NCBI GenBank assembly: GCA_019359415.1
Contig: JAHHHH010000075.1
Location: 1 to 38,377, forward strand
DNA from: Iphinoe sp. HA4291-MV1
GTDB taxonomy: Bacteria; Cyanobacteriota; Cyanobacteriia; Cyanobacteriales; Nostocaceae
Direction: 5' to 3'
DNA length: 38,377 nucleotides
A model generated the notes under the pieces. It did no database searches. It worked only from the letters and a program-made list of their open reading frames with translations, and was not told the origin of the DNA. Positions 7,483-38,377 of this stretch are shown piece by piece. Every line of letters starts with the position of its first letter. The first letter of the stretch is position 1. Position numbers and translations under genes: made by a program.

Positions 7483-7782
7483 GTGAAACCAATAGGATAT
7501 TTTACTACAGCAATGCCTGACGACGGCTCATATATTGATGAGCTACAGCAGCAATACGGCTCAACGTTCGCAACGATGCCCAGGACGCTCAAAGCAGCGC
7601 TGTTAGTGAAACTGGCTGAGAATTTACTCTCTACTGAAATCAAAATGGCTGGCTATGCGGTCGCAGAACATGAAATGAACGCTTTACAGCCGATTGCAGA
7701 CAACATCTATCGGCGCGTCACCATTGGCGAACAACTGGGGCTTGCTGAGGCGATTGTTAATCAACTGAAGTGCAGAGGCTAA
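7483..7782 (+). CDS. Hypothetical 99-residue helical protein
   Basis: The start is GTG at 7483, with a clear AAAGGAG nine bases upstream. The protein is mainly helical (LKAALLVKLAENLLSTEIKM, MNALQPIADNIYRRVTIGEQ) with no membrane segment or known motif. It sits four bases before the next gene, so both are likely co-translated. Confidence 0.75.
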   Translation: MKPIGYFTTAMPDDGSYIDELQQQYGSTFATMPRTLKAALLVKLAENLLSTEIKMAGYAVAEHEMNALQPIADNIYRRVTIGEQLGLAEAIVNQLKCRG

Positions 7783-16488: not shown

Positions 16489-18720
16489 TTAATAAAACTC
16501 CCAATTAGATACTTTGTTTAAATTCCAAATTGAAATCTTAAACTCGGATTCTAAAATAGTAGATAAATACTCAAGTGGTAAGCCAACTACATTAGTATAA
16601 CTTCCTTCAATTTGTTTAATAAAACATGCTGCTTTGCCTTGTATACCATAAGCACCTGCTTTGCCAATTGGCTCACAAGACTGTATATAATGCTCAATTT
16701 CATCATCAGTTAATGTCTTAAACTCTACCTTAGTAGATACAATATCATTAAATTTAATCTCTCCAGTGCGTGCATCCATTAAGGCAAGACCCGTAATAGC
16801 TTGATGTTCTCGACCTGATAATTTTTTGAGGATTTTTCGCGCTTCATCATTATCTTTTGGCTTACTTTGGACTTCACCGTCTAATACAATCTCTGTATCT
16901 GCACCGATTATGACTCTTATATTTGGACTATATTGCTTATCGTTCTGAAACACCTGCTGGGCTTTTTCTTTTGCTAGACGTCTAACCCGCTCTTCTGGCG
17001 TTTCTCCTTCTTTTATCTCTTCAGGATGATTACTGCTTAATATCTCGATTTGATTTTTCGTAATAATCTGTCGCAATAATTCCAATCGTCTAGGTGAAGC
17101 AGAAGCCAATAAGATACGAGGAGACATTAACTGATATAGAATACAAGCAGTTCTTTTATCTGCATACCCCAATCTTTGTTCAGATGATACTTGGAAGTAA
17201 TCTAATTCATTAGGACCTAAAATTCCAGATGGGGAGACAATAATTTCATGTGAATAGCTCGAAGTTCGGAGTAAAAGCGTAGGAATTTCTTTAAGTTTTG
17301 GTATAATATCTCGAATAAGAAAATCCCAATCATCCTGCTTATGCTCATTTTCACCAAGCCAAGCCAGAATTGTAGAAATTTCTGCTGATAAGATATCTAC
17401 TTTCCCCTTTGTTAAATCTAGAAATCTTTTATAATCAATTCTCTTATTCATATCTACATGCACATCTAATACAAGTAGCTGACCATTTTCTTTCGCTAAC
17501 TCCATCACTTTACATGCAGCCTCTTGTCTATTTTGGTCAGTTAAACAATAACCAGACACGAAAACAACATCAGCCTTCCTGATATCGTTACTAGCTTTTT
17601 CCACATCATCTACAGAAAGTGCTTGACAAGAATCTGTAATCGTTATTGACGTGTCCTTTTCTCTTGTATCCCGTAGTATAAGAGAAACACTTGTGGAACG
17701 TTCATAATTAGCTGGGAGAATCGTATTAATACACTGCCTATTCAAATCTTCTTCGATAGATTTGCCTAAAGGATCACCACCAATAACTCCAAGAACTGAA
17801 CACTTTTTGAATCCTTCTTCCTTTGCCTTTAAGGCAAAAATTACTGCTGTCCCTCCTGGACTGCATTTTATCTCTCCTCGAACATGTTGACCTGGAGGTT
17901 TCAAGGTTGAAAAAAACTGCTCAGGTAACCTACTATACGAAATATCGTAGTTAATATCACCTACTGATACAACACTGAGTTCTGGAGTCCCTTCAGTAAC
18001 AGGAAGATTTTCCGAATAATTCTTCTCTGCTATTCGCCAAGTTACACGTCCCTCAAACAAAGGGTCTTGAAGCAGTTCAACAAATTCATAAATTGGCAGT
18101 CCAACTACATTACTGTAGCTACCTTTGATTTTCTCAAATAAAATTACTCCTCGTTCTTGAATACCGAATCCACCGGCTTTATCGAGCGGTTCACCCGTCT
18201 GGGTATAGCGTTCGATATCATTATCACTATATTGCTTCATTTTTGCTTCAGTTGCTACGCAATAAGTCTTTTTATTCTTTGGATTATCACCTTGAGCAAG
18301 AACAAGACCAGTTAAAACCGAAAAATCTTCTCCCTTTAGTTGAGAAAGCATTTTTCTCACTTTTTCATTAGCTCTATTTCTGATTTCTTTATCTATACCT
18401 TGCGGGTTAATTAGTAGAGGTCTATCCAATACACGTTGTTTAAAGTAAACAATTGTATCAATGCCTATTAAAACAGTTTTTTTTCGTCCTAAAATATCGA
18501 GATTTTGATAAAATTCATCGTCGTCTAAAGCTTTTTGAATCTTCAGTTGTGCCGCTTCAATAACTAATTTTTTGACTTCATCTATTTTCAATCTTTTGTT
18601 AAATAGATTGAACTTAAAATTTCCCTTAATATCAAACAGTTTAAAGTCAATACCTTCACAAAAACCTATCTGCTGTAAAAGTGCTTTACGCCGTGGTGAA
18701 GCAGAAGTGAAAAGAAGCAT
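16489..18720 (-). CDS. Maf-PfkB-Maf triple-domain fusion enzyme
   Basis: A 743-residue protein. Residues 1-215 are a Maf domain (SASPRR at 6-11, catalytic-type D88 in GIDT, ending GSYSNVVGLP). Residues about 248-530 are PfkB-like (SPGGTAVIFALKAKEEGF at about 287, VVFVSGYC at 385, GYAD at 518-521 in place of GAGD). Residues 534-743 are a second, more canonical Maf domain (ASASPRRLELL at 539, GADT at 606, GSYTNVVGLPLEYL at 706). Maf proteins are nucleoside triphosphate pyrophosphatases that hydrolyse canonical or modified nucleotides to NMP and PPi; PfkB proteins phosphorylate sugars or nucleosides. Two Maf domains around a kinase in one chain is not an arrangement I know. It is the first gene of the operon, divergent from the Roc-COR gene. 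Confidence 0.85.
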   Translation of the reverse strand: MLLFTSASPRRKALLQQIGFCEGIDFKLFDIKGNFKFNLFNKRLKIDEVKKLVIEAAQLKIQKALDDDEFYQNLDILGRKKTVLIGIDTIVYFKQRVLDRPLLINPQGIDKEIRNRANEKVRKMLSQLKGEDFSVLTGLVLAQGDNPKNKKTYCVATEAKMKQYSDNDIERYTQTGEPLDKAGGFGIQERGVILFEKIKGSYSNVVGLPIYEFVELLQDPLFEGRVTWRIAEKNYSENLPVTEGTPELSVVSVGDINYDISYSRLPEQFFSTLKPPGQHVRGEIKCSPGGTAVIFALKAKEEGFKKCSVLGVIGGDPLGKSIEEDLNRQCINTILPANYERSTSVSLILRDTREKDTSITITDSCQALSVDDVEKASNDIRKADVVFVSGYCLTDQNRQEAACKVMELAKENGQLLVLDVHVDMNKRIDYKRFLDLTKGKVDILSAEISTILAWLGENEHKQDDWDFLIRDIIPKLKEIPTLLLRTSSYSHEIIVSPSGILGPNELDYFQVSSEQRLGYADKRTACILYQLMSPRILLASASPRRLELLRQIITKNQIEILSSNHPEEIKEGETPEERVRRLAKEKAQQVFQNDKQYSPNIRVIIGADTEIVLDGEVQSKPKDNDEARKILKKLSGREHQAITGLALMDARTGEIKFNDIVSTKVEFKTLTDDEIEHYIQSCEPIGKAGAYGIQGKAACFIKQIEGSYTNVVGLPLEYLSTILESEFKISIWNLNKVSNWEFY

Positions 18721-18783: not shown

Positions 18784-18852
18784 AAAAAATTAAGTAGAAC
18801 ACCTTTAATTTCAAGTCAATGCGCTTCATCCCTAAAGTTACGAGTTTTGCCC

Positions 18853-21543
18853 ATGACCAACAAAGCATTGCTTCAAGTTATTCAAAATGCCTACACAGAG
18901 GGAGCAGCTACGCTTGACCTCAGCTTTAAACAAATAAAAACGCTACCCTCAGAAATTGGACAGCTTACCCACCTCACACAGCTTGACCTAAACAACAACC
19001 AACTGACGATACTACCGCCAGAGATTGGACAGCTTACCCACCTCACACAGCTAAACCTGAGTTCCAACCAACTGACGATACTACCGCCAGAGATTGTAAA
19101 GCTTACCCACCTCGCACAGTTTGACCTAAACGACAATCAACTGACGGTACTACCACCAGGGATAGGGCAACTTACACACCTTACCCATCTTGACCTGAGC
19201 TTTAATCATCTGACAGCACTTTCCTCAGAGATTGGACAACTGATCCACCTCACCCACCTCGACCTAAGCGACAATCAACTGACGATACTACCACCAGAAA
19301 TTGAACAGCTTACCTGCCTAATCCAACTTGACCTACGCTCTAATCGTTTGACAGTGCTACCCTCAGAAATTAGTCAACTTACCCACCTCACACAGCTTGA
19401 CCTTAGTGATAATCAATTGACGATGTTGCTTAAGGAAATTAAACAACTGACCCACCTCGCTCTGCTTGACCTTAGTAACAATCAACTGGAGGCACTACCC
19501 CCAGAAATTGTTCAGTTACGAAACTTAATATACCTATACCTTAATGGAAATTCATTATCATGGATTCCATCAGAAATTCAAGAAGGTGGAGACGCCAGGA
19601 GAATTCTAAACTTTTATAAGCAACTACTTGAGCAGGAAACCGATTATCTATACGAAGCTAAGCTACTCATTGTTGGCGAAAGTGGAGCGGGAAAGACCAC
19701 ACTAGCAAAAAAAATTAAAGACCTACATTATCAACTACAAAAGGATGAAGAATCAACTGAAGGCATTGATGTGACTCAGTGGGATTTTCCACTGGATAAC
19801 GGACGCCAGTTTCGTGTCAATATCTGGGACTTTGGCGGTCAAGAAATTTACCATGCCACTCACCAATTTTTTCTTACCAAACGCTCACTGTACGCCTTGG
19901 TAGCCGATACTCGCAAGGAAGATACGGATTTTTACTACTGGCTAAATGTGGTTGAACTGCTGAGTGATGGCAGCCCACTACTCATTGTTAAAAATGAAAA
20001 GCAAGACCGCCATAGGGAAATTAATGAACGTCAGTTATGGGGACAATTTAAAAATATCAAGGAGAGCTTGGGAACTAACCTAGCCACGAACCGAGGGTTA
20101 GATAGAATCTTGGACAGAATTCAGTTTTACATCAGAGACTTGTCCCATATTGGGACTCGACTGCCAAAAACTTGGGTTCAGATAAGACAAGCCTTGGAAC
20201 AAGACCCCCGCAACCATATCCCTGTAGAAGAATATTTTAACATCTGCCAGCAGAATGGGTTTACTGAACAGGAAGACAAGCTCCAACTCAGTGGCTACCT
20301 GCATGACTTGGGAGTGTGTCTTCACTTCCAAAATGACCCGCTCCTGAAGAAGACTGTCATCCTCAAACCCAAGTGGGGCACCTATGCTGTCTATAAAGTG
20401 CTGGACAACGAACAAGTAATTCGCAACCTGGGCAGATTCACTTGGTCTGACCTAGCAGACATCTGGAGAGATGACGAATACGCCAACATGCAAAATGAAC
20501 TCTTGCGCTTGATGATTAACTTCAAGCTCTGCTACGAAATTCTAGGAAACTCAGGGACGACGTATATTGCTCCACAACTATTGACCGCCAACCAACCTCA
20601 ATATGACTGGGATAAGGCTAACAACCTCACCCTGCGCTACACCTACGAATTTATGCCCAAGGGTATCCTTACCCAGTTTATTGTCGTCATGCATCAGTTA
20701 ATCGACCAACAACAATACGTTTGGAGAAGCGGTGTTATTCTGAGCAAAGACCAGACTAAAGCGGAGATAATCGAAAACTATGGCAAGCGGGAGATAAAAA
20801 TTAGGGTTGCGGGCCGTGACAAAAAAGAGTTGATGACCATTGTTACCTACGAAATGGATAGAATCCATAATACGTATCCAAGATTAAAATTTAATAAGCT
20901 CATTCCCTGCAATTGCTTTGTGTGTCGAAATCAGCAAGAGCCATACTTTTACAGGTTTGAAAGTTTGAAGAGACGAATTGCTGATAAACAATACCAAGTT
21001 GAATGTGATGTTAGCTATGAAAGAGTTGATGTTTTAAGCTTAATTGACGATGTCATAGATAGGAACAGGAAGCATCTTTTCAGAGAAGAAAAAGGTTTTT
21101 CCCATCATCCATCTCAACGAAATTTAGGGACAGCCAATATATCTATTTACATGGCTCAAACGCAAGCTCAAAATAAAAACCAAACGCTTCACAATGCTCA
21201 ATTCGCTGGGGGGCTTGTAGACGCTGAGACTGTGACTGCTCATCAAATTGGTGGTACCATCACCAACTACACACCTGAACAAAAACAAAACCTTGCTGAA
21301 GCTGCCGCAGAGATTCAGCAACTCCTACAGCAACTAGAGCAAACTTACCCCACTAATACACCGCTACAGAAGCAGGTGGTAGTAACTGAAGCTCTCAGGC
21401 AGATTGAGAGTAACCCAACCCTGAAGACGCGTGTGATTGGGGCACTGAAAGCAGGTGGCACTGAAGCATTGAAAGAGCGACTTGATCATCGCTTAGTTAA
21501 TATCTTGCTGGCAACACTAGAAGGGTGGCAGGAAGTAGAGTAA
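18853..21543 (+). CDS. LRR-Roc-COR (ROCO) GTPase-type protein with shared C-terminal tail
   Basis: An 896-residue protein from ATG 18853 (a TTG two codons earlier is less likely). About nine leucine-rich repeats of 23 residues (LTHLTQLDLNNNQLTILPPE type) span residues about 20-240. The Roc GTPase follows with P-loop GESGAGKTT (about 275-283), switch motif IWDFGGQEIYHATHQFF and a degenerate base motif (VKNEKQD where NKxD is usual). The COR dimerisation region follows (about 430-770). The last 115 residues (from about NAQFAGGLVDAETVTAHQIG) nearly match those of the pentapeptide protein at 11737. ROCO proteins are GTP-switched dimers; LRRs often sense ligands. Divergence from the Maf/PfkB/NDK operon and a shared tail suggest a sensor in the same system, which is inference. 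Confidence 0.9.
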   Translation: MTNKALLQVIQNAYTEGAATLDLSFKQIKTLPSEIGQLTHLTQLDLNNNQLTILPPEIGQLTHLTQLNLSSNQLTILPPEIVKLTHLAQFDLNDNQLTVLPPGIGQLTHLTHLDLSFNHLTALSSEIGQLIHLTHLDLSDNQLTILPPEIEQLTCLIQLDLRSNRLTVLPSEISQLTHLTQLDLSDNQLTMLLKEIKQLTHLALLDLSNNQLEALPPEIVQLRNLIYLYLNGNSLSWIPSEIQEGGDARRILNFYKQLLEQETDYLYEAKLLIVGESGAGKTTLAKKIKDLHYQLQKDEESTEGIDVTQWDFPLDNGRQFRVNIWDFGGQEIYHATHQFFLTKRSLYALVADTRKEDTDFYYWLNVVELLSDGSPLLIVKNEKQDRHREINERQLWGQFKNIKESLGTNLATNRGLDRILDRIQFYIRDLSHIGTRLPKTWVQIRQALEQDPRNHIPVEEYFNICQQNGFTEQEDKLQLSGYLHDLGVCLHFQNDPLLKKTVILKPKWGTYAVYKVLDNEQVIRNLGRFTWSDLADIWRDDEYANMQNELLRLMINFKLCYEILGNSGTTYIAPQLLTANQPQYDWDKANNLTLRYTYEFMPKGILTQFIVVMHQLIDQQQYVWRSGVILSKDQTKAEIIENYGKREIKIRVAGRDKKELMTIVTYEMDRIHNTYPRLKFNKLIPCNCFVCRNQQEPYFYRFESLKRRIADKQYQVECDVSYERVDVLSLIDDVIDRNRKHLFREEKGFSHHPSQRNLGTANISIYMAQTQAQNKNQTLHNAQFAGGLVDAETVTAHQIGGTITNYTPEQKQNLAEAAAEIQQLLQQLEQTYPTNTPLQKQVVVTEALRQIESNPTLKTRVIGALKAGGTEALKERLDHRLVNILLATLEGWQEVE

Positions 21544-23433: not shown

Positions 23434-23436
23434 ATT

Positions 23437-23477
23437 TCTGGTTTACCATAAATATGGTTTACTGGTTTGATGGTTGG
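23437..23477. promoter_or_regulatory. Repeat-rich operator/parS candidate before parA
   Basis: TGGTTTACCATAAATATGGT and then TTTACTGGTTTGATGGTTGG contain three TGGTTT repeats and a near-palindrome ACCATAAATATGGT, directly next to the parA start. TGGTAAACCATAA at 22733-22745 and TGGTAAACCAAA at 22583-22594 inside the partner gene are similar. This arrangement fits binding sites for the RHH partner. Confidence 0.45.
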
Positions 23478-23612
23478 ATATAGGCTACTGATAATATTGG
23501 GGAATGTCAAGGGAAAGTAGCAGTAGCTCTTTAGCTCTTTCCCTCTAATCAGCAAAAATACCCCTTAGCAAGTACCCAACCAAAGCGACCTAGAAATCTG
23601 GGTACTCAAGGT

Positions 23613-23776
23613 ATTGAGCCGAGATGGGTGTATTTTCCGGCAAGATGATCTGAAAACCTCTATCCTGTATGGGTTTGAAAAATTGCTACATCAAAGTCAA
23701 AAAAACCGTTATTTACAACGGAAAATCAAGCCTTTTAAGGTCATCTTGTAGGTTTTTGGTCATATCTCGGCTCAAT
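23613..23776. repeat. Inverted-repeat-bounded segment of 164 bp
   Basis: ATTGAGCCGAGAT (23613-23625) is the exact inverted repeat of ATCTCGGCTCAAT (23764-23776). Shorter inverted segments lie inside (CAAGATGA/TCATCTTG, AAAACCT/AGGTTTT). It encodes no convincing protein and could be a miniature element or a long structured RNA. The rest of the 740-base gap (23434-24174) is described with the parA and precursor control sites. Confidence 0.5.
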
Positions 23777-23985
23777 GCCAATTACATCACGAGAAAAGTT
23801 CTCTCTAAAAAAAATCCTGATTCTAGCAAAATTCACACAAAAAAAAATTACACATCAAGGGTACTGTAGAGCAGTTAACAGGTTAGCTATTTTAGTCATA
23901 GGTTGAGGCGTGCGAGCAGCACTGGAACAAAAATGTACTCTTAGGCTGGAAAAGCTTATGTTGACTGCCTTTCAACTCTCGCTCA

Positions 23986-24041
23986 ACTTTACCTAGTTTG
24001 AGCAGTTTTAGGTAAAGTCACATAGTAACCTCTACGAGGTT
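23986..24041. promoter_or_regulatory. Hairpins in the leader region of the precursor-peptide gene
   Basis: ACTTTACCTA (23986-23995) pairs with TAGGTAAAGT (24009-24018), and AACCTC (24027-24032) with GAGGTT (24036-24041). They lie 130-190 bases before the precursor peptide start and could be operators or 5' leader structures. Confidence 0.4.
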
Positions 24042-24174
24042 ATAAGGGTTTGGGGCGTTTGTCAAAACACTAAACCACATTTAGGCAAAGTTAGCCAAGC
24101 GCGTATGTTTTTGGTTGGTTGCTACTTGCACCCCTAAACCAATCAATAACTCTCAAAACAAGGAGATTTTTTTT

Positions 24175-24279
24175 ATGTCTTCTAAGGAATTAATTGAAAG
24201 CTGGGAACTGTTTATTGATGAAGAAGAAGAAAACACCGATGAAATCGAATTACCACAACTTGGAATTGTTGCTTGGTAA
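24175..24279 (+). CDS. Candidate RiPP precursor peptide, 34 residues
   Basis: A very short gene with a strong ribosome site (AGGAG, nine bases before ATG). The peptide starts MSSKELIESWELFIDEEEEN and ends LPQLGIVAW. The first two thirds are acidic, like a leader recognised by a modifying enzyme; the last nine residues are hydrophobic with a C-terminal tryptophan, like a core. It is followed by genes for an AdoMet decarboxylase, a radical SAM enzyme, a P450 and an exporter, which is what makes a precursor role likely. No known precursor family is recognised and no cysteine is present, so lanthionine or sactionine linkages are excluded. A leaderless signal or small regulator is the alternative. 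Confidence 0.7.
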   Translation: MSSKELIESWELFIDEEEENTDEIELPQLGIVAW

Positions 24280-24291
24280 TTAAGTAATTGC

Positions 24292-24357
24292 AGGGTACTG
24301 GCAACTCTAGTGCCTTGTAATACTGATTTGTGAAGTTACAGCAGTAACGGTTTTTCT
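24292..24357 (+). terminator. Attenuator after the precursor gene
   Basis: AGGGTACT (24292-24299) can pair with AGTGCCTT (24309-24316) using G-U pairs. Then GTTAC-AGCA-GTAAC (24335-24348) is followed by GGTTTTTC. A partial terminator here would let the peptide be made in excess over the enzymes downstream, the usual pattern in RiPP operons. Confidence 0.4.
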
Positions 24358-24368
24358 TCAACCTTTAT

Positions 24369-24433
24369 AAACCAGGTTTTTGAATAATTTCTTGCCGATA
24401 ATACCGGGTAAATATTTTTCATAAACCTGGTTT
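24369..24433. promoter_or_regulatory. Paired AAACCWGGTTT palindromes before the AdoMet decarboxylase gene
   Basis: AAACCAGGTTT (24369-24379) and AAACCTGGTTT (24423-24433) are each palindromic around one base and are 54 bases apart. They may be operator half-pairs or, since they also pair with each other, the arms of a long RNA hairpin in the leader of the enzyme genes. Confidence 0.4.
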
Positions 24434-24511
24434 ACAAGTTTTTTTTCTTTGATTGTCTCGACAACCAAAGAAATTGAAAACTTCTTATTTAAGAATAAAA
24501 ATTAACGGTTT

Positions 24512-24892
24512 ATGGATAGTATTGGTAAACATATTCTAGCTGACTTGTATGGTGTGAATCCTAAGTTACTAGAAGATGAGCATGGTTTAATGACTCTTCT
24601 AGAAAGCAGCCTTAAGAAACATCAATTTAATATTGTTGGCAGTTTGAGTCACAAGTTTAGTGGTGGTGGAAACGGTGTGACGGGAATCTTCTTATTATCT
24701 GAATCTCATGCTTCGTTTCATACCTATCCAGAAATTTCTTTTGTTGCTTTGGATTTATTTTCTTGTGGTAGCACATGCCCAGAGACAGTACTGAATGAAT
24801 TGATTGCGAAATTAAAACCATCAAGAGTATGGAAATCTACTAACACAAGAGGTCAAGAACAACGTCATTTTATTACTACCTTTATTAAGTAG
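24512..24892 (+). CDS. S-adenosylmethionine decarboxylase (SpeD/SpeH-type)
   Basis: A 126-residue pyruvoyl-type AdoMet decarboxylase of the small prokaryotic class. The self-cleavage site and active-site block LLSESHASFHTYPE is present, with S63 as pyruvoyl precursor, H66/H70 and the catalytic cysteine in LFSCG (C85), so the protein should process itself into two chains and be active. The product is decarboxylated AdoMet, normally the aminopropyl donor for spermidine. No aminopropyltransferase is nearby; instead it lies between the precursor peptide and a radical SAM gene, 41 bases ahead of the latter. A role supplying decarboxylated AdoMet for peptide modification is inference. Confidence 0.85.
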   Translation: MDSIGKHILADLYGVNPKLLEDEHGLMTLLESSLKKHQFNIVGSLSHKFSGGGNGVTGIFLLSESHASFHTYPEISFVALDLFSCGSTCPETVLNELIAKLKPSRVWKSTNTRGQEQRHFITTFIK

Positions 24893-24932
24893 TTAATCAT
24901 ACAACTTTAAATGAAAAGCAAGGAGTAGAAGT

Positions 24933-26354
24933 ATGCAGTTGATTAATAACGACGGCTTAATTAAGTTTGACCAACAGTTACCTGTATATAACTTCTTTTA
25001 TCCTCTACAAGCACAAAACATTGAAAAAACAGATCCAAAAGATATTTTCAAAATATATGATGAAATAGATACTCAAAAATTAAAAAATCGCGCTCTCTAT
25101 TTTCATATCCCTTTTTGCGAGACTATTTGTAATTTCTGTCCCTTTATTAGAGGGCTTTATAAAGGAGATGAGATAGTCGAGAAATACGTTCAAGCTTTAT
25201 TGCGTGAAATTGAGATTAAAGCGCAATTAAAGTCTGTAGTTGAAGTACCGATTGGAGCAATTTTCTTTGGTGGCGGTACACCTTCCCTATTAAGTCCAGA
25301 GCAAATTTTAAGGATAGGAGAAGCAATCCATAAGTATTTCGATCTTAGCCAACTACAGGAATTCTCCTTTGAAGCAGAGGTCAAAAGCGTGAATCGAGAG
25401 AAAGTAGCTGCTATGAAAGAAATAGGAGTTACTCACGCTCGCTTTGGACTTCAAAGTTTTAATCAATTCTATCGTGACTTATTTGATTTAACCGCTACAT
25501 TAGACCAAGTGTATAATGCGGTGGAAATCTTTTGCGAATATCTTAGGTATACATCCTTTGATATTCTGTATGGCATGAACGGGCAGACAGAAGATGATTT
25601 CATCAGTGACTTGCAAAAAGCTATTGCTTTAGGTACACCAACAATAGATGTTTACCCAATCGACCATGTAGTTACTCAAATCAAATTACACCAAAAAAGT
25701 AAAGAAGCTGGTTTACCGCCAAAATCAGCCATGAGTCGATTCTCTATGAACGTTCTGCTTAACCAGTATATGCGCTCCAATGGTTTTTTACCTCATAACG
25801 GTCATGGCTACGTTCGCGCTCCCAAAGAAGAACTCTTAAAACAACCAGTTGTCACAGATTACTATTCATTCAAATACCATGAATATGTCTACGGACATGA
25901 CGATAGAGATATTATCGGTTTCGGCGTTGGCGCAATTTCATCTCTAAATGGTTATGTCATCACCAACACATCAAATAGAAGTAAATATATCGAATCTGTC
26001 TTGGAACAAAGCACATGGGATATGCTGGTGAGCAAACACGCTCAAAGAGCAGATGCGAGTCGAGGAGTAATTTTGCACTTACCCTATCACGGTTTGGTAG
26101 AAAAATCTCGCATTAATTGGGAACAAGTTTATCCAGAAACTTTAGAGAATTTACAACAACTCGTAGACGCTGGATTAATTGAGGAAAAACCTGACAGATA
26201 TGAAATCACTCAAATTGGGTGGTACTGGTATGTCAACGTAATGTATTACCTCATACCCCAGCAAGAGAAACGCATTTTAAATAGTTTCATTGTTCAACAA
26301 CTTCGACAGCCAGGACGAGAAGTGAAAAAAGAACAGATTGTGCTTATGGCATAG
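24933..26354 (+). CDS. HemN/HemW-like radical SAM enzyme
   Basis: A 473-residue radical SAM protein with AAGGAG before the ATG. The cluster motif is CETICNFC (C62, C66, C69; Cx3Cx2C), followed by the glycine motif FFGGGTPSLL (112-120) and FEAEVKSV, all typical of HemN/HemW-like enzymes. The C-terminal winged-helix-like region is also of this type (IEEKPDRYEITQIGWYWY). Family members include coproporphyrinogen dehydrogenase, haem chaperones and methyl- or cyclopropane-forming enzymes that bind two SAM molecules. With a precursor peptide and an AdoMet decarboxylase just upstream, it is probably a peptide- or amino-acid-modifying enzyme rather than a haem enzyme. Confidence 0.85.
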   Translation: MQLINNDGLIKFDQQLPVYNFFYPLQAQNIEKTDPKDIFKIYDEIDTQKLKNRALYFHIPFCETICNFCPFIRGLYKGDEIVEKYVQALLREIEIKAQLKSVVEVPIGAIFFGGGTPSLLSPEQILRIGEAIHKYFDLSQLQEFSFEAEVKSVNREKVAAMKEIGVTHARFGLQSFNQFYRDLFDLTATLDQVYNAVEIFCEYLRYTSFDILYGMNGQTEDDFISDLQKAIALGTPTIDVYPIDHVVTQIKLHQKSKEAGLPPKSAMSRFSMNVLLNQYMRSNGFLPHNGHGYVRAPKEELLKQPVVTDYYSFKYHEYVYGHDDRDIIGFGVGAISSLNGYVITNTSNRSKYIESVLEQSTWDMLVSKHAQRADASRGVILHLPYHGLVEKSRINWEQVYPETLENLQQLVDAGLIEEKPDRYEITQIGWYWYVNVMYYLIPQQEKRILNSFIVQQLRQPGREVKKEQIVLMA

Positions 26355-26392
26355 TATATGTAAATTTTAAAGGACATTTTTTGGATTATCTG

Positions 26393-26446
26393 AGGAGAAA
26401 GAAAAAGTTGAAACAACTAAAATATTCTTTCTCCTTTAATTTTTTA
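26393..26446 (+). terminator. Rho-independent terminator after the radical SAM gene
   Basis: AGGAGAAAGAA (26393-26403) pairs perfectly with TTCTTTCTCCT (26425-26435), followed by TTAATTTTTTAT. Transcription of precursor, decarboxylase and radical SAM genes may end here, with the P450 from its own promoter or by readthrough. Confidence 0.65.
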
Positions 26447-26487
26447 TATATTGTTACTACCACAATCACAATTTCTCAATAGTTAGT

Positions 26488-27708
26488 ATGACTAAAGATT
26501 TCAGTTTGCTAAATCTTCTGGAAGATAAATATAGAGATAATCCTTATCCACTTTACCATCAACTTCGCTCACAGCATCATATTTTTTGGGATGAACGCCT
26601 GAATGCATGGGTATTAACTCGTTATCAAGATATTGCAGAAGCTCTAAAAAATCCACAATTGTCAAATCAGCGCCTAAGTTTAGATAAATCAAGCTTTCCA
26701 GAAAAAGTTCAACATTTAGTTGAAGAGTCATTAAAAATCATTCAAAGACAGATGATTTTCAATGACTCTACTGTTCACAGCAGACTCAGAGGAGTTTGGT
26801 CATCGATTTTTTCTTCTAAAGTTCTAGAAAGCCTTGTTGTACAAATTAAATTGATAACAGAGAATTTACTAAATCAAGCTTTATCTCAATTTGGTAAAGA
26901 ATTTGATTTTATGTCAGCTGTAGCTTTTCCCTTAGTATCAAATGTAATTTACCAATTAATCGATGTAGACCCAGAAGAATTTCCTGAATTTGGTAACTGG
27001 ATTATCGACTTCATTAACTTTTTAGACGGTAAAATACAATCGAATAGAGACATATTAAGAACTCTTAAAAGTGTTAGCTATCTTAATTACACCTGTTCAA
27101 ATCTTATCGAGCGACGACTGAAGTATCCCAAAAATGATTTATTACAGAATGTTATATCTGCAATTAATAAGCATCAGGTTTCTCAAGATGAGCTAGTTGC
27201 CAATATGTTTTTACTGATAGCTGCTGGACATCAATCATCAGCTCATTTGATAGGCGTCGCATTATTATCTCTTTACCAGCTTCCCAATTATTATCAAGAA
27301 ATTCTTCACGACTCTAGACTGATTCCATCGTTTGTTACTGAGTCATTACGCTATGATAGTCCCATACAAACTATAGGTAGATTTGCTAAAAATCATCTGG
27401 AACTATGCGGACATAATATTAAAGCTGGTCAACGAATTATGATGAGTATTGGTAGTGCAAATAGAGACCCCGAGCGGTTTCAAAATCCAGATTCATTCAT
27501 CCTATATCGTCAAGATAATGTTCCACTGTCATTTGGTTATGGGGCACATCAATGTATAGGTGCTGCACTATCAAAGCTGGAAGCAAAAGTTGTAATTGAA
27601 ACTGTCTTAACTCATCTTCCACGACTGCAAATAAATGTCAATAAGCTAAGCTGGGATGTAGGAATTGCTTCTCGTGGTTTAAATAAGCTAATCCTTAATA
27701 TAGATTAA
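26488..27708 (+). CDS. Cytochrome P450 with altered I-helix motif
   Basis: A 406-residue soluble bacterial-type P450. The haem-binding loop is FGYGAHQCIG (C356), the ExxR motif is ESLR (285-288), and the region NRDPERFQNPDSF is typical. In the I helix, where relatives have AGHETT, this protein has AGHQSS (246-251): the conserved acid is glutamine and the oxygen-activating threonine is serine. This change often goes with P450s doing non-standard chemistry such as cross-linking. It lies after the radical SAM gene and before an exporter, so it may oxidise or cross-link the peptide product, possibly at tryptophan. It needs external ferredoxin-type electron donors, none encoded here. Confidence 0.9.
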   Translation: MTKDFSLLNLLEDKYRDNPYPLYHQLRSQHHIFWDERLNAWVLTRYQDIAEALKNPQLSNQRLSLDKSSFPEKVQHLVEESLKIIQRQMIFNDSTVHSRLRGVWSSIFSSKVLESLVVQIKLITENLLNQALSQFGKEFDFMSAVAFPLVSNVIYQLIDVDPEEFPEFGNWIIDFINFLDGKIQSNRDILRTLKSVSYLNYTCSNLIERRLKYPKNDLLQNVISAINKHQVSQDELVANMFLLIAAGHQSSAHLIGVALLSLYQLPNYYQEILHDSRLIPSFVTESLRYDSPIQTIGRFAKNHLELCGHNIKAGQRIMMSIGSANRDPERFQNPDSFILYRQDNVPLSFGYGAHQCIGAALSKLEAKVVIETVLTHLPRLQINVNKLSWDVGIASRGLNKLILNID

Positions 27709-27719
27709 AAATTACCAGA

Positions 27720-27930
27720 AGAAAGGCAGAGGACAGAGGGCAGAAGGTGCGATGCATAATTTCTGTTGAAAAGCAAGTCCTCTGTACTCTGCCAAACGGG
27801 TCTAAAGCCCCCAACTTATGGTATGGAGACAAATAAAAGCGAGAGCTTCCTTATTAAATCCCCCGCTTTTAAGCGTGGGGATGCCCTTCTGCCTTCTGCC
27901 TTCTGCCTTCGTACTTCTGCCTTCTTAAAC
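27720..27930. repeat. Heptamer-repeat region with possible IS200/IS605 end remnant
   Basis: The 288-base gap contains purine-rich GGCAGAGGACAGAGGGCAG near 27724 and tandem CTTCTGC units at 27886-27925, in inverted arrangement, as in cyanobacterial short tandemly repeated sequences. Between them CCCCGCTT-TT-AAGCGTGGGG (about 27862-27880) forms a hairpin like the ends of IS200/IS605 elements. No gene is seen. Confidence 0.5.
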
Positions 27931-27996
27931 GCAACTAATTTAGTACTTCTATTTAATAATCTTTAGATAGTTAGTTGATTAGCAAACTAAACTCTC

Positions 27997-29238
27997 ATGA
28001 CAAACAATTACATTAACCTATTCCGAGACAAGAAATTCTTCCTAATCTGGTTAGGACAAGTACTTTCAAAATTAGGTGATGCTTTAGACGAAATAGCGTT
28101 AATCTGGATTGCCATTAAAGTTTCCGGTGATAATTATCTAGGTATTGGTTTAGTTTTCTTCATTCGCTTTCTACCTTACTTAATTTTTGGCATTTTAGGT
28201 GGAGTCTACAGCGACCGATTGAATCGAAAACATATCATGATTGTTACTGATATTGCACGAGGTCTGGTTGTAACTTCTCTGCCTATATTAATTTTTCTCA
28301 ACCGTCTTGAGTTATGGCATTTGGCTGCTGTATCGCTCATCTTAACTATTTTACGTTCTTTTTTTCAACCGGCATTACAAGCCTTTGTACCAGATATTTT
28401 GAAAAAAGAGCAACTTATTCATGCGAATGCATTGCTTCAAGCCTCCTATGAATTTTCAGGTGTTATTGGACCTGCCATTGGAGGTTTTTTACTATCAATA
28501 ACCTCACCAGCGATAGTATTTATTATTGATGCAATGACATTCTTTATGTCTGCTTTTGCTATCTTTCTAATTTCCTATCGATACAGAAAGAATTTAGAAC
28601 CAAAAGAATCCCCGAACGGGATTCTTGTTGATTTTAAAGAAACTGTAGATTTGCTGTTGCAAAAAACTCATGTAATGTGGAGCATTCTGCTATCAGCAGC
28701 AGCGATTCTATCAATTGCTGGAATTTTAAGATTAGCGATACCAAGCTATACAAGCCATATATTAGCAGGGGACTCCAAATTACTGGGAACTATCATGAGC
28801 GTGATGGGACTGGGTACAGTAGTAGGTGCGCTAATAATTGGAAAAGTTTCGATAAAATCCTATGAAAAGTTAATGTTTTTAGGATGGGCTGTATATGGTC
28901 TTTTGCTAGGTATTATGGGATTAACTCATCAACCTCTAATAGCTATCTTTATTGCACATTTTGTAGGTGTCTTCGGTGCAGTAGTAGATGTGTTGTTAGT
29001 TTCAATAATACAAATAAATATACCCATTAAATTTATGGGTAAAACCTTCGGATTCTTTTCAACATTAGCTAATGTCGGAGATTCTATATCTGGTTTACTA
29101 ATAGGATATTTACTTACTAAATTTCCAATACCGTATATATTTCTGTTTGGCGGTGGGAGTGCTGTCTTAATCGGTTTTCTCGGAATTTATCTCGTCAGTC
29201 AATGGCAAAAGCGTTCTGAAAGAATCGCATTAAGATAA
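27997..29238 (+). CDS. Major facilitator superfamily exporter
   Basis: A 413-residue membrane protein with about 12 hydrophobic segments. The loop motif GGVYSDRLNRKHIMIVTDIA (about 68-87) is the MFS motif between helices 2 and 3, and FQPALQAFVPDILKKEQLIH is typical of drug or siderophore exporters of the EntS-like type. It probably uses the proton gradient to export a small molecule across the inner membrane. As last gene of the cluster with the peptide, radical SAM and P450, it is the likely exporter of the product and a self-resistance gene. Substrate is inferred from context only. Confidence 0.85.
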   Translation: MTNNYINLFRDKKFFLIWLGQVLSKLGDALDEIALIWIAIKVSGDNYLGIGLVFFIRFLPYLIFGILGGVYSDRLNRKHIMIVTDIARGLVVTSLPILIFLNRLELWHLAAVSLILTILRSFFQPALQAFVPDILKKEQLIHANALLQASYEFSGVIGPAIGGFLLSITSPAIVFIIDAMTFFMSAFAIFLISYRYRKNLEPKESPNGILVDFKETVDLLLQKTHVMWSILLSAAAILSIAGILRLAIPSYTSHILAGDSKLLGTIMSVMGLGTVVGALIIGKVSIKSYEKLMFLGWAVYGLLLGIMGLTHQPLIAIFIAHFVGVFGAVVDVLLVSIIQINIPIKFMGKTFGFFSTLANVGDSISGLLIGYLLTKFPIPYIFLFGGGSAVLIGFLGIYLVSQWQKRSERIALR

Positions 29239-29487: not shown

Positions 29488-30087
29488 CTAGGCGCTGAGT
29501 TGGGTCATTTCAACGGGCATGGGTTGAATCGAAACAATGGGAATAGTTTCCACCAAAGAAACCGTATAAGCGGAAAGGTGTAAAAAATCAGACACTGGAG
29601 GAGTCAACAAAATATCAAAGACTGTCTGTTTGAGGTCGCTTGATATCAAACTTGACGGGATTTTCCGACTGGGGATATTTCTTTTCTCAACAGGATAGGA
29701 AAGATATTTGTACTCCAAATTCTTATCCACCCAGTCTTTCAATGCATAAATTGCCTCTCTACCAAAACCATTACCGTGAGCTGATTTTTTTATCCAAATT
29801 CCTAACTCCGGTGTATCAGTATCAATAGCACCAACGGAGCAAATTCCTAAAAACTCGAAAGTATCCTTCTTGAGAATCACCAACACTAAGTCAGTTTTAT
29901 TTTCTCGCTGTTGAATCATATCTTTGATGACCTTCTCGGTTTCACTGATATTGTCAGCTGGTTTCGGATACATAAAGGTGGTAATTTCGCTTGTGAATTC
30001 CCGAAACACATCTTCTGTGTATTCCAGCGAAATCACTTGGAGAATGAGTCTTGTACTCTCTAAACTTACTTTTTCTAAGTTCTCCAT
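29488..30087 (-). CDS. GNAT-type N-acetyltransferase with a replaced C-terminus
   Basis: A 199-residue protein. Residues 1-145 are a RimJ/RimL-like GNAT domain: TRLILQVIS at the start, FLGICSVGAID, ELGIWIKKSAHGNGFGREAI with the acetyl-CoA pyrophosphate loop, and YPVEKRNIPSRKI. Family members normally continue with SLGG and two more strands; here the sequence changes abruptly after about residue 147 (SSLISSDLKQTVFDILLTPP and on) into a stretch unlike GNAT. An insertion or deletion has probably replaced the last strands, so activity is doubtful. It is convergent with the exporter gene and is probably not part of that cluster. Confidence 0.65.
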   Translation of the reverse strand: MENLEKVSLESTRLILQVISLEYTEDVFREFTSEITTFMYPKPADNISETEKVIKDMIQQRENKTDLVLVILKKDTFEFLGICSVGAIDTDTPELGIWIKKSAHGNGFGREAIYALKDWVDKNLEYKYLSYPVEKRNIPSRKIPSSLISSDLKQTVFDILLTPPVSDFLHLSAYTVSLVETIPIVSIQPMPVEMTQLSA

Positions 30088-38256: not shown

Positions 38257-38377
38257 TCAGTAGACCGAAAACTTTTGTCAGTCAACGCAAGAATGAGGGT
38301 TTGGGGCGATGTTTTGGGCACAGGGTCGAGCGATCGCTTACCTTAGCAGGAGAACTCATCTACAACCCTATTGCTCA
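38257..38377. mobile_element. Left part of the MITE-like element spanning the junction
   Basis: TCAGTAGACCGAAAA (38257-38271) is the terminal repeat whose partner is at 111-125. GAATGAGGGTTTGGGGCG follows and is shared in part with 14029-14080. A HIP1 octamer lies at 38332. The last 32 bases repeat positions 1-32. Confidence 0.6.

Follow-up and report, generated by a model that had tools for sequence, protein, structure and literature searches.

The window analysed here, a stretch of 38,377 bases, is a complete contig of the 7.36-Mb genome of the cyanobacterium Iphinoe sp. HA4291-MV1, and it carries what is probably an undescribed gene set that would modify a tiny, gene-encoded peptide ending in Trp. 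The set comprises a 34-codon gene, an S-adenosylmethionine (SAM, AdoMet) decarboxylase (SpeD), a HemN-like radical SAM enzyme, a cytochrome P450 and an exporter of the major facilitator superfamily (MFS), all on the plus strand and at the positions given by an initial annotation of this DNA. We consider it somewhat probable that they form a plasmid-borne pathway of the type that makes ribosomally synthesised and post-translationally modified peptides (RiPPs), in which the radical SAM enzyme takes decarboxylated SAM (dcSAM) as its second cosubstrate and acts on the C-terminal Trp. A more specific proposal, of a new RiPP class, is tentative. Here a radical SAM enzyme of the HemN type would use dcSAM, supplied specifically by the SpeD of the cluster, as the radical-bearing cosubstrate, building a dcSAM-derived group on the C-terminal Trp of a precursor of 10–34 residues. 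Both proposals start from direct observations: the gene order, the recurrence of a mini-peptide gene with the same enzymes, the invariance of an ELF motif and of the last Trp, an altered second-SAM pocket, and the grouping of the SpeD proteins. The features concerned are as follows, with the basis of each assignment in brackets.

24160..24165, plus strand: Shine-Dalgarno sequence AAGGAG of the peptide gene (sequence)
24175..24279, plus strand: precursor-like peptide of 34 aa, with ELF as residues 11–13 and a C-terminal VAW (conserved in three other loci)
24280..24511, plus strand: strongly structured spacer between the peptide gene and speD, with several hairpins (minimum free energy, MFE, against shuffles)
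24512..24892, plus strand: SpeD, AdoMet decarboxylase, 126 aa (TIGR03330, PF02675, active-site residues)
24933..26354, plus strand: HemN/HutW-like radical SAM enzyme, 473 aa, with His168 for NocN Arg153 (PF04055)
26488..27708, plus strand: cytochrome P450, 406 aa (PF00067)
27997..29238, plus strand: MFS exporter, 413 aa (PF05977, PF07690)

A mini-peptide gene conserved with its enzymes

The window peptide, MSSKELIESWELFIDEEEENTDEIELPQLGIVAW (24175–24279), is preceded by AAGGAG nine bases before its ATG, as described in the initial annotation, and is the sole Shine-Dalgarno-led ATG open reading frame (ORF) of 9–40 aa on the plus strand of 23434–24511. It can be aligned with MENAIELFVSRKNEEHYDFNNVAW, MESAIELFVTESSAENYDFNSVAW and MESAMELFEVDINDCDLQGLCMW, and M1, ELF and the last Trp are invariant among the four. 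Chemistry had been proposed on Trp10, Trp34 or aliphatic carbons; Trp34 occupies the invariant position and may be regarded as a candidate site, whereas Trp10 varies. Conservation of the peptide gene beside SpeD and HemN homologues, a check set beforehand, was found on plasmids of other bacteria. The peptide gene adjoins SpeD in four loci (the window, Glaesserella, Klebsiella CP032835 and Xenorhabdus), and a mini-peptide gene accompanies the radical SAM gene in five (the window, Glaesserella, Xenorhabdus, Alicyclobacillus and Cytobacillus). The system thus displays a RiPP trait, a short precursor-like gene beside modifying enzymes and conserved together with them.

Five loci were examined ahead of the enzyme genes for ATG ORFs of 9–40 aa with a Shine-Dalgarno sequence on the coding strand: the window, Glaesserella (L003), Klebsiella CP032835 (L014), Xenorhabdus (L004) and Alicyclobacillus (L005). 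Each has exactly one, and every one of these ORFs ends in Trp. Per 2000 dinucleotide shuffles, a Trp-ended mini-ORF arose by chance 16 times for the window, 9 for L003, 4 for L014, 4 for L004 and 16 for L005; multiplying these rates overstates the case, because the peptides were already known when the rule was fixed, and because the L003 and L014 loci are closely related. Between the Glaesserella and Klebsiella peptide genes, six codons differ silently and eight alter a residue. The residues of ELF and VAW are identical in the two, with four of their six codons silently changed, and ELF may serve leader recognition. The mini-ORFs of Alicyclobacillus and Cytobacillus encode 10 and 15 residues, respectively, and tandem Trp-containing repeats (DIVW-DIVW and EWVAL-EWVAL) are present in two mini-ORFs. 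Among the mini-genes of the five relatives only that of Glaesserella lies in frame under an annotated gene, an over-long ORF of 76 aa (the plasmid gene table is incomplete); precursors of such small size escape gene callers.

The second-SAM pocket of the radical SAM enzyme

The motif CETICNFC, noted in the initial annotation, holds an intact C62xxxC66xxC69 triad that is invariant across seven aligned enzymes. This CxxxCxxC motif and a conserved Tyr that stacks on the adenine of the second SAM (SAM-II) are traits of class C radical SAM methylases, and the window enzyme has both. The top NCBIfam model is ChuW/HutW, at 184.7 bits against an equivalog cut-off of 400, and the protein scores under the cut-offs of both the HutW and the HemN models. 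PF04055 is its only Pfam match at E ≤ 0.001, with no SPASM domain. A single-sequence AlphaFold model of the window enzyme had a mean predicted local distance difference test (pLDDT) score of 39.6 and was not used; the solved relatives found were HemN (1olt) and NocN (9p2u).

In NocN, the methionine moiety of SAM-II is bound by Tyr96, Arg153, Asp196 and Ser225, of which Asp196 contacts the amino group, while the carboxylate of the first SAM (SAM-I) is bound by Arg171; in HemN, SAM-II adopts a different pose (PMC13266988). Judging from its two contacts, Arg153 would meet the SAM-II carboxylate. In an alignment of 18 enzymes, the Arg153 column holds His in all five radical SAM enzymes of the SpeD-associated clade and Arg in all 13 others, which comprise HemN, HemW, HutW, NocN and more distant relatives. 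The five include the enzymes of Klebsiella NZ_CP040995, where the upstream part of the cluster is lost, and of Alicyclobacillus, where the SpeD-like ORF lacks catalytic residues; the five form a clade with support of 98/97 in a tree of 17 rows without NocN. Among the 18 columns invariant in the 13, Arg153 alone has a residue shared by all five and absent from the 13, and the amino-binding Asp196 is conserved in 18 of 18. The four NocN positions that contact the SAM-II methionine read Phe, His, Asp and Asp in the window enzyme. The replacements of Tyr96 by Phe, of Ser225 by Asp and of Arg171 by Leu or Ile extend past the SpeD clade and are uninformative on dcSAM. The exchange of Arg153 for His with Asp196 retained would fit a second SAM that has no carboxylate.

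SpeD proteins apart from the housekeeping enzymes

The cluster SpeD clears TIGR03330 at 95.3 bits (cut-off 75.65). With the residue offset taken from the window sequence and the alignment, its S65, H70 and C85 align with S63, H68 and C83 of T. maritima AdoMet decarboxylase, whose active-site Ser, His and Cys are described in PMC10407285. The enzyme had been annotated with intact S63 and C85; its identity and C85 are borne out, but the pyruvoyl-forming serine is S65. An HTYPE motif with Pro73 suggests that the substrate is SAM and not ornithine or arginine. The initial annotation had also argued from the absence of a spermidine synthase. That absence is real within the window, but the genome encodes a separate SpeD-SpeE fusion of 427 aa on a different contig, so the argument fails. 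Because the host already encodes SpeD-SpeE, spermidine synthesis was rejected as the only role of the cluster SpeD; none of the cluster proteins was recognised as an aminopropyltransferase by Pfam or NCBIfam.

In a tree of 36 SpeDs, drawn from the collected loci by a match to the active-site pattern, the four cluster SpeDs (window, Glaesserella, Klebsiella CP032835 and Xenorhabdus) and a SpeD from a Deefgea plasmid split from 31 others with support of 100/97, the window row being a long branch and the bootstrap not settled. Of the 31, one comes from a Burkholderia plasmid and the other 30 belong to genomes of the same order as the window. The four cluster SpeDs alone are not a clade, as the Deefgea SpeD falls within them. 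The proposal that dcSAM serves the radical SAM enzyme gains indirect support, from the clade-specific change in the SAM-II pocket and from cluster SpeDs that stand apart from housekeeping ones.

On the Deefgea piscis plasmid NZ_CP054144 (L015:3492-8012), the SpeD of the same clade lies in a different gene set, next to an iron-containing redox enzyme (Haem_oxygenas_2), a DUF3419 protein, a small annotated monooxygenase and a beta-lactamase-family protein. This may be another dcSAM-using pathway.

Relatives and their gene content

The scans covered samples of cyanobacterial genomes together with plasmids, phages, viral contigs and E. coli, and GTDB species in a single pattern pass. A tblastn search with the window radical SAM enzyme matched 406 of 72,556 plasmid records. 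Among the matches listed (the best 40 of 406), six cover at least 93% of the query at 31–51% identity: two equal-length Klebsiella plasmids (51%), Glaesserella parasuis pD74 (49%), Xenorhabdus pXT141 (48%), Alicyclobacillus p1 (44%) and Cytobacillus (31%). The remainder of these 40 reach at most 27%, except a Listeria HemW at 31.5% over 65%. The enzyme is rare in the window's own phylum. In overlapping samples, it was found in its own genome only, both among 386 genomes of the phylum (E ≤ 1e-50) and among 218 of the family (E ≤ 1e-45). At E ≤ 1e-40, matches came from 4 of 388 genomes in the order, the window's own and three with relatives of 39%, 27% and 26% identity (G436, G529 and G418). These three were used as outgroups, and no SpeD was seen among the ORFs looked at beside them (those of at least 110 aa; all ORFs of at least 25 aa at L011 only). 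The G436 relative adjoins a second radical-SAM-like ORF of 606 aa, labelled by eye (L017:9032-12324). The relatives in G529 (L018:1492-9256) and G418 (L019:1143-6944) have similar neighbouring ORFs, arranged identically, which may represent a further conserved pathway.

A distant DNA search of E. coli genomes with the Xenorhabdus cluster gave no match. The phage scan gave matches in 36 records, of which the best one listed reached 35% across under half of the query, and in viral contigs query A2 returned one relative of 22% and the Cytobacillus radical SAM query none. Exact peptide patterns run against genome contigs pointed to one Lentisphaerae metagenome-assembled genome with a relative of 37%, and no SpeD was seen among its listed ORFs.

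The Glaesserella plasmid carries the peptide, SpeD, radical SAM, P450 and MFS genes in the order of the window, the last as two ORFs. In Xenorhabdus, the peptide, SpeD, radical SAM and MFS genes are followed by an ornithine decarboxylase gene, with no P450 in the stretch seen. Klebsiella NZ_CP040995 retains the radical SAM gene, a P450 gene interrupted before an ISL3 transposase gene, and the MFS gene; Klebsiella CP032835 has the peptide and SpeD genes alone, flanked by sequences that we take to be IS1. Alicyclobacillus carries a 10-residue ORF, the radical SAM gene, a weakly SpeD-like ORF and the MFS gene, and Cytobacillus a 15-residue ORF, the radical SAM gene and the MFS gene. The constant part is thus the mini-peptide, the radical SAM enzyme and the exporter, while the P450 comes and goes and SpeD is present in the window, Glaesserella, Klebsiella CP032835 and Xenorhabdus. 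The Alicyclobacillus p1 ORF between the radical SAM and MFS genes (132 aa, L005:9507-9905) lacks the catalytic Ser, His and Cys; its relation to SpeD is only a lead, with a Pfam E value of 0.08, under the cut-off, and an hhalign probability of 0.2%, which is not significant.

The P450, absent from some of these clusters, is also the less conserved enzyme: the window and Glaesserella P450s share 26% identity, against 50% for the radical SAM pair. Its top NCBIfam model is TIGR04538, at 194.6 bits and under the cut-off of 500. The initial annotation called this P450 unusual. Its heme loop, FGYGAHQCIG, looks canonical, and the unusual part is the I-helix motif AGHQS, in which Gln presumably occupies the position that is usually acidic.

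Hairpins behind the mini-gene

In all six loci a hairpin separates the mini-gene from the gene that follows. The window spacer (24280–24511) has an MFE of −68.5 against −40.3 ± 4.1 for shuffles (z −6.89) and may hold a regulatory element. The z scores of the other loci are −1.85 (L003), −2.95 (L014), −3.80 (L004), −4.95 (L005) and −3.22 (Cytobacillus, L006); shuffles folded as low in 14 of 300 cases for L003, 1 of 300 for L006 and 0 of 300 for each of the remaining four loci, including the window. The Xenorhabdus hairpin presumes a SpeD start at about 7616, chosen by homology; if the annotated start at 7511 were used, SpeD would overlap the hairpin as well as part of the peptide gene. The Glaesserella hairpin bears a T-run resembling an intrinsic terminator, whereas several of the others have none in the sequences examined. 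The one Rfam match, to mir-4841 (30.4 bits, gathering score 100), was taken as chance.

Weighing the proposed pathway

Several observations count against a dcSAM-dependent RiPP pathway. Pfam and NCBIfam recognised neither an RRE domain nor a leader peptidase in the five cluster proteins. The Cytobacillus peptide, MKKEWVALKNEWVAL, which was excluded from the five-locus count, has no terminal Trp, and the Cytobacillus radical SAM enzyme has Arg in the Arg153 column, with no SpeD in the stretch seen. Conversely, the Alicyclobacillus enzyme has the His168 equivalent beside a SpeD-like ORF without catalytic residues. Klebsiella NZ_CP040995 has neither peptide nor SpeD, its upstream part being lost. 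The change to His168 counts as one evolutionary event, because the five enzymes are a single clade. All five also have Arg170 where 12 of the 13 others have Ser, so the guanidinium group may merely have shifted by two residues. Finally, the hairpins would suit a precursor made in excess, and also an attenuator.

We regard it as unlikely that the peptide is a RiPP precursor while SpeD does not supply the radical SAM enzyme, instead feeding polyamine or aminopropyl chemistry elsewhere or acting as a spare target that shields the host from the product, with the radical SAM enzyme a methylase that uses ordinary SAM twice. Such an arrangement would agree with the additional SpeD of the host, the ornithine decarboxylase adjoining the Xenorhabdus cluster, an Arg170 that could bind the carboxylate, and the lack of an intact SpeD in the stretches seen of Alicyclobacillus and Cytobacillus. 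It leaves the change of the SAM-II contact unexplained, however, and SpeD lies between the peptide and the radical SAM enzyme in all three loci that have all three (window, Glaesserella and Xenorhabdus), and no aminopropyltransferase was recognised in the window cluster.

The main rival, which we hold to be slightly less likely again, is that the mini-ORF is a regulatory leader similar to TrpL or TnaC, controlling the enzymes through the hairpin by attenuation or ribosome arrest, and that the enzymes act on a small metabolite. In favour of such a leader are the hairpin behind a short ORF with Trp codons in all six loci, the terminator-like T-run in Glaesserella and the tandem Trp-containing repeats. 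A Trp attenuator would have a run of Trp codons before a terminator and an antiterminator; hairpins are present in all six loci, but the two Trp codons of the window peptide are scattered. Against a leader, ELF is kept through silent changes far from the Trp codons, a conservation that Trp-codon attenuation does not need, several hairpins have no T-run, and the set holds no other enzyme that would make a substrate: Pfam and NCBIfam name no scaffold-making enzyme among the remaining cluster genes.

A heme-related or other small-molecule pathway, in which a HutW-type enzyme would have a tetrapyrrole as its substrate and the mini-ORF would play no part, is very improbable, as ChuW/HutW is the best NCBIfam model but its score is so far beneath the cut-off that heme degradation was rejected, HutW proteins fall outside the SpeD clade with Arg retained at both SAM positions, neither Pfam nor NCBIfam names a HutX- or HutZ-like neighbour, and the conservation of the peptide would be chance.

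Comparison with known systems

The proposed pathway would work like the class C methylases of RiPP biosynthesis, yet it departs from HutW in score, from NocN in SAM-II contacts, from SPASM enzymes in domain content and from crocagin in gene content. As in NosN and NocN, the fold is HemN-like by sequence, and the two-SAM residues Tyr34, Gly100 and Asp196 are kept; NosN modifies an indole-derived group of a RiPP (PMC13266988). Here, in contrast, the Arg153 and Arg171 columns are changed, the precursor is tiny, a SpeD belongs to the cluster and thiopeptide genes are absent. The crocagin precursor CgnA of Chondromyces crocatus is likewise very short and ends in Trp (21 aa, with a three-residue C-terminal core); the excerpted description of that pathway names CgnB, CgnC, CgnE and a dioxygenase, and no radical SAM enzyme or SpeD (PMC10070186). 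The present cluster consists of SpeD, radical SAM enzyme, P450 and MFS by Pfam, and is set apart on this basis without a direct comparison with Cgn proteins. Microcin C is a peptide natural product that obtains an aminopropyl group via SAM decarboxylation (PMC10491745), but there an MccD-type transferase aminopropylates a phosphate without a radical SAM enzyme, and its adenylating enzymes are absent here. Use of dcSAM in Bacillus is indicated by the title of a reference. Mycofactocin likewise involves a radical SAM enzyme whose target is the aromatic residue at the C terminus of a small precursor (PMC9062424); that enzyme is of the SPASM type and the precursor ends in Val-Tyr, whereas here the enzyme is HemN-type and the residue is Trp. 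Biarylitides share a minimal precursor gene (18 bp, five residues) and a P450, but the P450 defines that class, while here it is optional and the radical SAM enzyme is the steadier partner. The titles and abstract openings of open-licence PubMed Central papers, among the matches listed, contained no description of the gene set.

Replicon and neighbouring genes

The window probably represents a circular plasmid of some 38.3 kb, because its ends (1–32 and 38346–38377) are a 32-bp direct repeat and it encodes ParA, Mob_Pre and DnaB; its DNA matches plasmids of Nostoc, Calothrix and Trichormus. A GNAT gene downstream (29488–30087, minus strand) was considered as a member of the set and left out, because Trichormus and Gloeothece plasmids match that query gene alone. 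Elsewhere, the window encodes a large ROCO protein with leucine-rich repeats, Roc GTPase and COR domains (18847–21543), and a single minus-strand ORF with PfkB-kinase and Maf domains (16489–18720) that adjoins a second PfkB-like ORF.

Proposed mechanism and significance

From these observations we infer modification of the peptide, use of dcSAM, and a site, product and product function as follows. The 34-residue peptide would be the precursor, in which ESWELF is likely to be the element recognised and VAW, at the C terminus, the core. SpeD would produce dcSAM, and the radical SAM enzyme would cleave ordinary SAM at its iron-sulfur cluster and take dcSAM as the second SAM. A methylene radical of dcSAM would then attack the indole of the C-terminal Trp, leaving a methyl or a dcSAM-derived group, for example one containing aminopropyl. 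Where present, the P450 might oxidise or cross-link the product. A host protease would cut off the leader, and the MFS protein would export a small Trp-derived peptide or alkaloid, perhaps antagonistic or signalling.

We know of no earlier example of a radical use of dcSAM. If the radical SAM enzyme does use it, this would be new radical chemistry, with His168 and Asp210 as a searchable and testable signature, and orphan SpeD genes would come to mark specialised metabolism. Besides the cyanobacterium of the window, five named genera from two phyla have the system on plasmids, which indicates that it moves and is presumably useful to its hosts.

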